Positions 20,912-49,945 of a stretch of DNA of 64,000 nt are shown piece after piece. The position numbers and the translations under genes are program-made. The DNA is from Bryum argenteum. Its lineage: Eukaryota; Streptophyta; Bryopsida; Bryales; Bryaceae. The number at the start of each line of letters is the position of its first letter. The stretch's first letter is position 1. The notes beneath the pieces were generated by a model. That model searched no databases and had not been told where the DNA came from. It saw only the letters and a program-made list of their open reading frames with translations. The stretch lies in NCBI GenBank assembly GCA_037043015.1, contig CM073323.1, positions 10,785,758 to 10,849,757 of the forward strand, given 5' to 3'.

Positions 20912-21076
20912 GAGATAGATAGATAGATAGATAGATAGAAACTCCGATCCTTTCTAAGGGGCCGGCGTGAATGAAGTGTCTGTTCGTAATGCTGGTATCC
21001 CGATGGCCACCGGATAAGGGGAAATTAGACCAATACTACTCCCCCCTCTCAAGGGTGGACACTATAACTACGCTAG
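20912..21076 (-). mobile_element. 5'-truncated SINE with 14-bp target duplication, inside a copia gag relic
   Basis: The 165-bp tail portion of the SINE family ends in (TCTA)n on the minus strand. It is flanked by perfect copies of tggctaaaagaaca (20898-20911 and 21077-21090). Removing it and one duplication restores an open gag-like reading frame across the site, so it inserted into the older copia relic. Confidence 0.93.
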
Positions 21077-21434
21077 TGGCTAAAAGAACATATGACATTA
21101 GTTCTACGTGTATGTTAGAATATTGCTGTGAGAAAAGAGTTGTAGCGGGAGCAAATGTAGAAAGAGTCATATCTATCATTTTTGGGTCAAGGATCGTCTC
21201 GCCGCAAAGTTGAAGCTGAGCAAACAATCGGTGAAGCTCGATGTTGAATGCTTGGAGAGTGGGGAAGTCGAAGATGAGGAGATTAGTCCAATCCATCCTA
21301 GCTTGTGGAAGAAACAAGTGTCCGTTGTATTGAAATTGGGCTTGAACCGCAACTTGATCGGATTGTCCACGTGAATATCCTGCTATCAGAGGGAAACATC
21401 CGTGTGGCGTCGAAGTATCATCAGTGAGTGTCAT
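21077..21434 (-). pseudogene. Copia-type LTR retrotransposon gag fragment (UBN2-like)
   Basis: A minus-strand frame has the copia gag pattern: LPQARMDWTNLLIFDFPTL, FNIELHRLFAQLQLCGE, a DMTLSTFAPAT block and LFSQQYSNIHVELMSYVLLA. It is a fragment: no protease, integrase or RT was found, and it is interrupted by the SINE at 20912-21076. Past the SINE the frame continues a short way (20830-20900) before a stop. No LTRs were identified. Confidence 0.85.
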
Positions 21435-22194: not shown

Positions 22195-22205
22195 TCGCTT
22201 ATATA

Positions 22206-22284
22206 GATAGATAGAAACTCCGATCCCTTTCTAAGGGGCCGACGTGAATGAAGTGTCTGTTCGTAATGTTAATATCCCGATGGA
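22206..22284 (-). mobile_element. Severely 5'-truncated SINE tail with 11-bp target duplication
   Basis: Only about 79 bp of the shared 3' tail is present, ending in gatagatagaaact on the plus strand. Perfect tcgcttatata copies flank it (22195-22205 and 22285-22295). The duplication shows that the tail fragment itself was retrotransposed. Confidence 0.9.
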
Positions 22285-39700: not shown

Positions 39701-39844
39701 GTTGTCTTATCAGACAAATTTCCTATTGATTTCTCAGACACAATTTAGATGAGATGTACATCTAAGATGACATCAATGTATCAAATGCACACCTCATCTA
39801 AATTGTGTCTGACAAATCAATAGGACTTTTGTCTACAAGACAAC
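39701..39844. repeat. 144-bp inverted repeat (MITE-like or foldback)
   Basis: Arms 39701-39757 and 39789-39844 pair with few mismatches (cacaatttagatgagatgt and its complement). No target duplication was identified. It lies about 190 bp upstream of the 5S-headed SINE. Confidence 0.75.
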
Positions 39845-40041
39845 ATTGCCGCCACAGATGTAAACCCGGTTGCGATGATGCACGAGTTTATACTATCCTC
39901 TTGAATTTTGCACGAGCGTCTAATTGCAGACAGGAAAAGACAAGTAACTTCACCTTCCATGCTATGGAATTGCCTTGCAGTCTATGTCACAGATCAATTT
40001 CGGGATGACAAGGTTCGATTGTGCCCACAAGCACGACGCAA

Positions 40042-40230
40042 AATAGATAGAAACTCCAGTCCCTTTTTAAGGGGCCGGCGTGAATGAAGTGTCCGTTTGT
40101 AATTTCAAAATGGATGCAGCACTAGGACTTCCCGGGAGGTCACCCATCCCAAGACTATTCCGGCCCAAAGGCGCTTAATTTCAGAGTTTTGATGGGATCT
40201 GGTGTAGTAGCCTTGGTATGACCGCATCAC
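40042..40230 (-). mobile_element. 5S rRNA-headed SINE with 11-bp target duplication
   Basis: Read on the minus strand, a 5S rRNA-like head of about 117 nt (40228-40112) is followed, after about 10 nt, by the 3' tail found on the tRNA-type SINE (attac-aaacggacacttc, hairpin, gagtttctatctat). The tails match at about 59 of 62 positions. Perfect gcacgacgcaa copies flank the whole unit (40031-40041 and 40231-40241). The fusion therefore inserted as one piece by target-primed reverse transcription. This is the SINE3-type arrangement known from fish; in a plant it would be unusual. Confidence 0.9.
40112..40228 (-). other. 5S rRNA-like sequence (SINE head; not judged a functional rRNA gene)
   Basis: The minus strand reads gatgcggtcatacca, then agatcccatcaaaactctg, aaattaagcgcctttgggc and gatgggtgacctcccgggaa, finishing gtgctgcatcc. 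This is collinear with plant 5S rRNA over its length. The box C of the internal promoter (gatgggtgacct) is intact; box A (aaattaagcgc) and the intermediate element (gaatag) each carry changes. There is no T-run terminator at the end; it continues into the SINE tail. Confidence 0.9.
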
Positions 40231-40372
40231 GCACGACGCAATAACCACTTAAAAATTTCGCACCAAACGAAACGAAGGATGAATCAAGTGATAATTCTCA
40301 GACTAAATACTCCTCGCCGTAAACGACTTTTGTTTTGTTGCACAGTCAATTGCCTGAACTTGATAGATGCTC

Positions 40373-43810: not shown

Positions 43811-45674
43811 ACGGGAAATCTCAATAGAAGAAAACAAACCCCTCTCCTTCTTGGTAACCAATCATTAATAGAACATCTATTTTTTGCACCATTTTTTTTC
43901 ATCATAATCTAACTTTGTGATTTTTAACATTTGGAGACTCAAGAGGCCACTCAGTTATTACTCTATGTCTTGTAAACATTGTATGGAAGATTTAAGCAAG
44001 TTGATATTCATATAATGAAGGGCTACAGATTGGAAAAGATATGATTACACTTTTAACCAAAAAGAACTTTTGCCATAAATATATAAGCAACATAATTGAG
44101 ATCATTAGCTCTGTACTTTGACACGACATTGAGACATGTAGAAGATGAATGTGCAAGTAGTTGGGAGTACAAATAGTGAGTGAGTCGAGTGCGTAGGGTG
44201 TTATTCCTATTGGATTGGGCTTGTGATATGCTGAGAACGAAGTTTGTAGTGAACAAGTTTACTTTATCATATAATCCTCTAGTTGCTTGTATGTGAGGTG
44301 AAAGTATTTCTATTGATTTCAATTATGCGTGCTCTCAATTTGAAAGTTATTCTTTGTAAGTGTTGTGGATAAATCAAATGACACGTACAATTAGAGTAGT
44401 TGACACAATTGGTGAGCAATAGTTGGAAAAAGTGAGACTTGTGATACCTAATTTGGTAAATACAAGTAACCCTTGTACAACACAAGATGATTGTTACAAG
44501 CTATGAAAAATAGCTTAAAATTGCATATGCTACAAAGTGATTGTCACAACCCACAAAAAATAACTTAGAATTACGAATGCTATAAAGAATGGAGTATAAT
44601 TGCCAACATGTGTTGAGGCTCCTATGTTTTCCAAGATATATGCATAAATTATTTAAAAATTATGTTTCCACTTATATCCACCTTTTGTTCAACTCCTTAG
44701 AATCTCTCTTGTTCCTTAAAGCTGAAAATTCCAAAATCGCAATTTATTATAACCTCAAATTCCTTTATTTGGTGTTATTATATGTGTCATGTTGCCAAAA
44801 CCCTAGTGTGCCATTTTGGTCCACAATCTAAAACGTGTCGTTCTACAGGCATATTCTTGAATTGCAATACAAAAATATTTATGCTTGTAAAATGGCATGT
44901 TCTTTAACATCACACATCCTTCATAATATTAACTAATTTCTACAATATCATCAAAAATTCCATAATATCACACATTTTGATGCTTTTTGACCTTTGAAAA
45001 CCGGTCAAGGGGCAATATTTTTTAGTGCATCTCAAAAACATTGTTATTTATGAACGGCCCCTACAAACGGCACTTATTCCTAACTTATTGTTGTAAAATA
45101 ATAATGGTTTTGAACTACAGTACAAAAACATTGTCCTTCAAGGTCAAAATTTGAGATAAAACCTATGTTATTTGTTTCCGTTTTTGCACCTCAAACGCTC
45201 CAATTTAGCAAAGGTGTTGTATGTACAAAGTTCTGTACACTTGAGTGCAAAAGAGTGACTTTTAATCAATATTGCCCTGACTAGCCTCTAAATGTCCTTG
45301 GGGGTACCTTCACCCAAAAACTCATTTTTAAATAAAAATCCAAAGATAAAAATAAAAATAAGCTACTTAAATGTCAACCGTACAAACTTGTAATAGACTT
45401 GTTATAGATTGTAATAAACTTGTAGTAAACTTATAATAGACTTGTTGTGGATCAAAACTTGACTCATGGGACCTTATAGATTGCAAGGTCGTAACTGACG
45501 TTTTAGTACACAAAACATGCTCCAAAATACCATCATTTTCACTTTGAGGTGAAAATACTACCAACATGAAATTTGCAATAAAAAAATCACCAACTAGAAA
45601 GTTCCTCATCTTCATCTCAAGGACTCAATTGTACAAAAAAAAACTCATTAAAAACAGATGTAGGCTCAAATATA
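43811..45674. other. AT-rich intergenic DNA
   Basis: No supported gene or RNA was found. Segment 45480-45600 resembles, inverted, sequence near 3740-3830. Confidence 0.4.
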
Positions 45675-46018
45675 GGCACCTCAAGCCTTGGCTTGGTGGT
45701 TGGAGCTCATGGCCCCCAATGAGGAGGTCGTGAGTTCTACTCCTTATGCCGGCGTGATGCTCACCACCTTAGTCCACCCAACTATGGTGAGGGGTTCTTG
45801 GACCTCGTTGTATGGGTACCTCAAAGCCCTTTGAGGGATATCATGTCGGGTATCTCTAATGCACTAGTGGCTAGGTAGGAATTAGCATAAAGTTCACCCC
45901 AAGAGGGGTTAGTAGTCCTGCCATTTGTGTTATGACCTCCAAGCATACATCCAAGGGTAGGTTGAATAAACACTCTATTCATGCCGGCCTCTAAATAGGT
46001 TGGAGTTTCTCGTCTTCT
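45675..46018 (+). mobile_element. tRNA-headed SINE, older full-length copy
   Basis: It starts ggcacctcaagccttggctt with an A-box-like tggcttggtgg and a decayed B-box (gagttctactc). It ends ctaaataggttggagtttct followed by a TTC-rich tail. Flanks aggctcaaatata / aagctccaaaatcta may be a mutated target duplication. It belongs to a subfamily with the AGGTTGG tail variant. Confidence 0.85.
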
Positions 46019-49582: not shown

Positions 49583-49597
49583 TTCATAAAAGGAAAA

Positions 49598-49945
49598 GGC
49601 ACCACAAGCCTTGGCTTGGTGGTTGGGGCTCATGGCCCCCATTGAGGAGGTTGTGGGTTCCATTCCCCATGCCGGCGTGGTGCTCACCACTATTGTGGGG
49701 GGTCCTTGGACCTTGTTGTATGGGTACCTCAAAGTCCTTTGGGGGGATACTATGTCAAGTATCCTCAAGGCACTAGTAACTAGGCTAGAAACTAGCGTAG
49801 TTATAGTGTCCACCCTCGAGAGGGGGAAGTAGTATTGTTCCAATTTCCCCTTGTCCGGTGGCCATCGGGATATTAGCATTACGAACGGACACTTCATTCA
49901 CGCCGGCCCCTTAGAAAGGGACCGGAGTTTCTATCTATCTATCTC
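49598..49945 (+). mobile_element. Full-length tRNA-headed SINE with perfect 15-bp target duplication
   Basis: 348 bp. The tRNA-like head has a Pol III A-box (tggcttggtgg) and a B-box (ggttccattcc, one change from consensus). The body is unrelated to tRNA. The 3' tail can fold into a stem (CCGGCCCCTT/AAAGGGACCGG), followed by gagtttctatctatctatct. Perfect ttcataaaaggaaaa copies flank it (49583-49597 and 49946-49960). The intact boxes and duplication indicate recent insertion. It lies between the LEA and helicase genes. Confidence 0.95.

Follow-up and report, generated by a model that had tools for sequence, protein, structure and literature searches.

A 5S rRNA-like sequence lies directly in front of the tail of a short interspersed element (SINE) in the window, the 64-kb stretch of Bryum argenteum DNA analysed here. 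The arrangement raises the question whether the two parts form one element and, if so, whether that element is a member of a 5S-headed SINE family or a chimera of some other origin.

A 5S-SINE fusion enclosed by a target-site duplication

An earlier note, made from the letters of the window, had read a 5S-like sequence at 40228-40112 of the minus strand, joined to a SINE tail within a 189-bp unit between perfect 11-bp direct repeats, and had taken the whole for an undescribed family that moved as a unit. The structural part of this reading is borne out, and the insertion is composed as follows.

40231-40241, minus strand: target-site duplication (TSD) copy on the element's 5' side, TTGCGTCGTGC (found by reading and by script, score 11)
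40042-40230, minus strand: whole chimeric insertion, 189 bp, consisting of a G, the 5S-like part, TTTT and a 5'-truncated SINE A
40111-40229, minus strand: full-length 5S rRNA-like part (Rfam RF00001)
40104-40110, minus strand: junction, TTTT plus a few bases matching neither partner
40043-40103, minus strand: SINE A 3' end (positions 296-356 of 361), hairpin and start of the TCTA repeat, 95% identity
40031-40041, minus strand: TSD copy on the element's 3' side, TTGCGTCGTGC (found by reading and by script)

The 5S part, preceded by one leading G, comprises 119 bases that match the RF00001 model over positions 1-120 of 120 with a score of 86.2 bits (gathering threshold 38), and this is the sole Rfam match at gathering score within the 64-kb window. 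The TTTT of the junction may represent the end of a 5S transcript and may also be a pol III stop. The SINE tail behind it is just 61 bp long. The 11-bp TSD encloses the whole. The fusion entered the site as a single unit, and relatives elsewhere in the genome carry TSDs of their own (see below). With no LTR pair seen and a duplication of 11 bp, the insertion has the appearance neither of a stray tandem 5S gene nor of a Cassandra LTR.

A long inverted repeat at 39712-39834, which several microRNA models match below their gathering scores and partly on both strands, is probably a MITE adjoining the insertion. The window also contains a DExH helicase fragment, whose best named relatives, at 64-65%, are in Taxus and in the record Gb_37230 (a Ginkgo prefix), with further sequences at 85-92%; the comparison took in proteins below full length. 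Named matches of a LEA protein are mostly from land plants, apart from Peronospora and Podila. Both proteins thus point to a land plant, possibly a non-seed plant.

SINE A and its relatives without 5S

The SINE partner, termed SINE A here, is 361 bp long and carries box A-like and box B-like motifs of tRNA type in its head, as judged by reading; ARAGORN found no tRNA in the 64-kb window. The following SINEs of the window have no 5S head.

49597-49943, plus strand: SINE A copy without a 5S head, positions 1-361, 92% identity, 347 bp, with TTCATAAAAGGAAA on both sides
45674-45916, plus strand: older SINE without 5S, with the same head and body and a D-type tail
20926-21077, minus strand: 5'-truncated SINE A (209-361) without 5S; no 5S in the 150 bp upstream
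22203-22283, minus strand: 5'-truncated SINE A (280-360) without 5S; no 5S in the 150 bp upstream

The older SINE is 81% identical to SINE A 1-251 and its D-tail match lies at 45943-45985. The elements at 45674-45985 and 49597-49943 thus have head and body in common and differ in their 3' tails (D and A type, respectively), as if tails had been swapped between SINEs in the course of SINE evolution. Seven SINE A copies without 5S were examined, of which four (L054-L057) start at AGGCACC and have a flanking repeat visible by eye, and the other three are 5'-truncated.

A hairpin, ATTCACGCC, is a feature of the SINE 3' tail. Five SINE tails fold into such a hairpin behind a conserved ATTCACGC, with differing letters in the stem; for one plant L1 lineage, stringent recognition of such 3' ends has been described (PMC3747384, in the part available). 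A LINE bearing the SINE hairpin tail was not found among five zf-RVT/LINE places (L061 and L153-L156): three of them (L061, L155 and L156) terminate in poly(A) and lack the hairpin, and no terminus of L153 or L154 falls within the stretch examined. A genome search with zf-RVT gave 113 matches, many of them in long open frames, which suggests that LINE activity in this genome may be recent.

Dispersed 5S loci are mostly fused to SINEs

The assembly searched comprises 258.8 Mb in 25 contigs. The 211-bp unit, which includes both repeats, yielded at least 49 matches among the best 40 of 756 candidates scored, some of them pieces of one copy. The search with RF00001 yielded at least 46 dispersed 5S loci among the best 47 of 8049 first-look candidates scored. 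A tandem 5S array was also looked for; the matches listed among these best 47 of 8049 are all dispersed and none lies in an array. Behind the 26S gene, where a 5S gene was also sought, 3109 of 3501 bases are N.

The 46 listed loci were sorted by the sequence 3' of the 5S. SINE A follows from its first bases in 16 loci and in 5'-truncated form in 12, SINEs with other tails follow in seven, and a LINE follows in one (L061); together these 36 loci constitute the fusions considered below. In six further loci (L066, L070, L078, L087, L090 and L093), kept out of the fusions, the 3' partner is of no recognised type. The remaining four (L064, L041, L046 and L043) have flanks in common and resemble scattered 5S genes or remnants of such genes: about 55-86 bp of upstream sequence, including a TCATGTACATT-like stretch, is common to L064, L046 and L043, and L041 has mainly downstream sequence in common with L046 and L064. 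The 5S of L064 (1501-1619) is one base apart from the commonest head, and the locus may represent a 5S gene that belongs to no array. The common flanks had raised the suspicion of a Cassandra element in these four loci, which was rejected for want of an LTR pair around the 5S in 3.1 kb of L064. For annotation, the sorting carries a warning, since 36 of the 46 listed Rfam 5S matches in this genome are fusions.

TSDs were scored at each locus by one scan rule; as controls, upstream sequence from one locus was combined with downstream sequence from a different one. A score of at least 10 was reached by 19 of the 46 listed loci and by 1 of the 184 swapped controls. The elements at these 19 loci start at the same G in 15 cases and one or two bases earlier in the rest. 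A longer scan of 18 loci, run without control, adds L061 and L082. The repeat at L061 is a perfect 16 bp, or 11 bp if its leading A run is counted to the poly(A). Strong TSDs (score at least 10) are therefore found in 21 of the 36 fusions, against none of the ten other listed 5S loci, and are absent in 15 of the fusions. The earlier note had proposed that many copies should end at the same 5' base of 5S and at the same tail, each with its own duplication; the common 5' base and the separate TSDs were indeed found, and a single fixed junction with the tail was not.

Junctions vary on the partner side

In 31 of the 36 fusions, the 5S unit beside the partner reaches the 5S 3' end or stops no more than six bases away from it; the exceptions (L039, L040, L084, L088 and L091) are cut or decayed 5S units. 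The partner side is far from uniform. SINE A starts at positions 1-4 in 16 copies, at 260 in three, and otherwise at 44, 127, 252, 257, 264, 272, 276, 296 (the window copy) or 326, making eleven start regions in all. The 12 truncated SINE A fusions have ten distinct internal starts, six of the 12 falling within 252-264, so that the breakpoints are not random and reflect either a preferred stop or some joint ancestry. 5S and SINE A lie on one strand in all 28 SINE A fusions, and the other tails and the LINE likewise read in sense. In L061 the partner is a 5'-truncated LINE consisting of the C-terminal part and a 3' end with poly(A), recognised as a LINE by reading of its translation.

Linkers before full-length SINE A vary in length and letters. 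They are mostly A/T-rich, extend up to about 13 bases and match neither partner. About 37 bases between the parts of L079 were assigned to neither, and a MITE-like insert separates those of L088. The latter insert, palindromic by reading, sits between an old 5S head (604-722) and the SINE tail, and about 196 bp of it also occurs beside the 5S of L041. A T run stands behind the 5S in 30 fusions, with three T in eight, four in 17 and five in five of them; the run of L040 and L084 sits between two 5S pieces. In the 22 fusions with TTTT or more, the run is likely a pol III stop.

An additional 5S piece is present in five of the 36 fusions (L040, L042, L075, L084 and L086). Pieces of 5S end near position 56 in L040 and L084 (in the second 5S) and near 77 in L039 and L086, and these recurrent ends may reflect 5S fragments that are stable, or sites at which switching is preferred.

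The divergence of the 5S part is correlated with that of the SINE part (Spearman 0.74, 27 copies). L062 and L081 were left out of this calculation, their SINE A match being to another tail type or another copy; with both included the value is 0.60 (29 copies). The correlation shows the joint age of the 5S and SINE parts only.

The fused copies do not trace to one junction or one SINE subfamily

Diagnostic columns place the 5S-headed full-length SINE A copies in more than one subfamily. A T in column 191 is shared by the 5S-headed L063 and L067 with L054, L116 and other copies lacking 5S. An A in column 118 is common to the 5S-headed L069, L080 and L042 and to L081. The 5S-headed L091 shares G in column 28, C in column 34 and C in column 123 with L055, L056 and the window copies, which belong to an older subfamily. 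The 5S-headed full-length copies thus appear to fall into two, probably three, subfamilies that also hold copies without 5S; the count is given in this form because two of the groups rest on a single C/T or G/A column, which may have changed twice.

A tree was built from 19 copies without 5S and 12 5S-headed full-length SINE A copies, the latter being those that satisfied a length rule out of 15 considered (all 16 of this class but L085). It needs eight changes of label, and one clade holding all the 5S-headed copies occurs in 0% of 200 bootstrap trees. Tree signal is low, lower than that of the variant columns, and such a clade was not rejected (AU p 0.146). Certain pairs could be fused lineages: between L059 and L086 the linker is identical and one derived base of the SINE is common to both, and L059 and L082 have two bases in common.

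The single family proposed in the earlier note is not supported, given eleven SINE A start regions, the other tails, the LINE and more than one SINE subfamily. Varied junctions, partners and subfamilies argue for repeated chimera formation rather than for one family. The one-sidedness of the junction likewise speaks against a fused master, since internal deletions would vary both sides.

A U6 RNA fused to a SINE

Downstream sequence was read at 20 of the 25 U6 loci listed, and one of the 20 is a U6-SINE fusion. At C4:6798770-6799150 (L141/L151), the 3' part of U6 is joined in sense orientation to a SINE that is 5'-truncated and has a D-type tail. The U6 part is itself 5'-truncated, and an 8-base repeat, GTAATGTG, flanks the unit as judged by eye. 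Given this case, chimera formation is not exclusive to 5S.

A template-jump model and its alternatives

The window element likely belongs to a set of about three dozen chimeric retroposons, the majority of them of independent origin. The joined copies consist mostly of a full-length 5S in sense orientation and a full-length or 5'-truncated SINE or LINE; the enzyme, the template jump and the donor RNA of the following model are what we infer from them. A LINE-encoded reverse transcriptase would nick the target, be recruited by the 3' end of the SINE or LINE, and copy the SINE or LINE RNA to its 5' end or to an earlier stall point. After the addition of a few untemplated bases, it would jump to the oligo-U 3' end of 5S RNA, sometimes copying two 5S RNAs in succession. 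Copying of the 5S RNA would then run through to its 5' end, and the composite cDNA would be inserted. The donor in this model would be the host 5S RNA, if its transcript has a GTGATGCGG start and a CATCCA plus U3-5 end, or otherwise the transcript of a variant gene such as L064. Most fusions are probably not mobile again. Only one of the best 40 SINE A copies (L067) coincides with a listed 5S head, and this rarity of 5S heads fits chimeric template jumping.

A true 5S-headed SINE family of the SINE3 type, in which a fused gene with the internal promoter of 5S copies itself and the short forms arise by internal deletion, would also give dispersed copies with a common 5' base and their own TSDs. 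The top Rfam score common to six copies, the single clade that the AU test leaves standing and the linker common to L059 and L086 point in the same direction. Deletions would, however, end anywhere in the 5S, and 31 of the 36 junctions keep to within six bases of its 3' end; an identical head is found on several tail types and on a LINE, and the SINE bodies belong to more than one subfamily. The runs of TTTT or longer in 22 of the 30 fusions with a T run, as likely pol III stops, would moreover make it harder to transcribe the fused unit from the promoter in the 5S. We therefore regard a SINE3-type family as unlikely, though less so for a minority of copies than for the set as a whole. That a few fused copies, for which L059 and L086 are the best candidates, were themselves copied, with L086 gaining a further 5S piece, we consider unlikely. 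If it were so, a plant SINE with a tandem double head of 5S and tRNA-like sequence would have been caught at birth, in the same step as has been proposed for SINE3 and, via insertion into an LTR, for Cassandra.

The fused RNA could alternatively have been made before reverse transcription, by an RNA ligase that attaches SINE RNA, LINE RNA or some other RNA to 5S RNA at the 3' end of the latter; RNA ligation is one of the two mechanisms named for U6/LINE-1 chimeras (PMC13174262, in the part available). Sense orientation, the mostly complete 5S 3' end and the U6 case are all as ligation predicts. The linkers, which are variable, mostly A/T-rich and about 13 bases long at most, are better explained by untemplated addition, and the 5S pieces cut near 56 and 77 would require extra cleavage steps, so that ligation, too, has a low probability. 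Far less probable still is an origin as a Cassandra LTR, as a stray 5S gene or through a SINE that landed beside a 5S copy. L064, L041, L046 and L043, with their shared flanks, do resemble dispersed 5S genes or remains of them, but no TSD of score 10 or more is present at any of the four, whereas one such TSD encloses the joint unit in the window copy and in 20 other fusions. The window itself contains a single 5S match. Template jumping from a SINE or LINE RNA to a 5S-like RNA is accordingly the reading retained here, and the spread of junctions permits direct testing of template jumping against RNA ligation.

Comparison with known chimeric retroposons and 5S-derived elements

Events of the template-jump kind are already known from mammals and the rice blast fungus (PMC13174262; PMC2104539; each as described in the parts available). 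A close parallel is provided by the chimeric retrogenes of the fungus, WEIRD joined to Mg-SINE or MGL, in which the copy of an abundant small RNA stands in front and a SINE or LINE behind, as here (PMC2104539). Those chimeras are also alike in orientation, TSDs, the presence of some double jumps and recurrent switch sites (PMC2104539). The features of chimeric retrogenes as set out in the available text of that study can be traced one after another in the present set: a full-length cellular-RNA 5' part (5S model 1-120 in the window), a 5'-truncated 3' part (SINE A from 296 in the window), varying truncation sites (ten internal starts in 12 fusions), direct joining in the same orientation, here with short linkers, and flanking direct repeats (11 bp and perfect in the window; 21 of 36 fusions) (PMC2104539). 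The moss set differs in its 5S-like donor, its land-plant host and the SINE as main first template. A full-length SINE partner is, in addition, common here, with 16 of the 28 SINE A fusions starting at 1-4 and 12 of the 28 truncated.

Mammalian U6/LINE-1 and 5S/LINE-1 chimeras likewise place a small RNA 5' of a LINE in one event, often with TSDs (PMC13174262, in the part available). The U6/LINE-1 chimeras are full-length and in sense (PMC13174262), whereas 5S/LINE-1 chimeras are as a rule truncated and in antisense (10.5% of 253 chimeras; PMC13174262). The 5S of the present fusions differs from the latter in being in sense, mostly full-length and mostly on SINEs. In Arabidopsis, template switching has been offered as an explanation for short foreign pieces in Sadhu chimeras (PMC2848041, in the part available).

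Families with a 5S-derived head include SINE3 and the DeuSINEs (PMC3747384; PMC10886601) and the 5S-related SINEs of Aspergillus fumigatus (PMC5063351). The head of the present copies is also 5S sequence. Unlike those families, as far as the available parts of these accounts describe them, a single fused lineage is not evident here, and in place of the one master with one junction that characterises SINE3 there are many junctions and partners and more than one SINE subfamily. HaSE3 resembles the present fusions in having a 5S head on an existing tRNA-derived SINE body and tail, and template switching has been proposed for it; it is presented, in the available part of its description, as one family with a consensus, whereas here the junction varies from copy to copy. 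Cassandra, a TRIM of land plants, is another plant retroelement containing 5S, with the 5S inside its LTRs (PMC10886601, in the part available). The 64-kb window has one 5S match, no second copy of its flanks was seen in the sequence read around it, and the duplication is 11 bp and not the 5 bp given for the plant elements Helenus and Ajax (PMC10886601).

The open-access papers surveyed described 5S-derived elements of animals and fungi as well as Cassandra, and no plant 5S/SINE chimera was seen among them. Relative to these papers, the new points are the land-plant host, 5S (in sense and mostly full-length) as the main donor and SINE RNA as the main first template. These dozens of natural events in one land-plant genome indicate that LINE machinery has repeatedly fused 5S-like RNA to SINEs or LINEs. 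Cassandra has been speculated to derive from insertion of a SINE3 into an LTR (PMC10886601), and fusions of the kind described here could serve as starting material for 5S-headed SINEs and perhaps for Cassandra.
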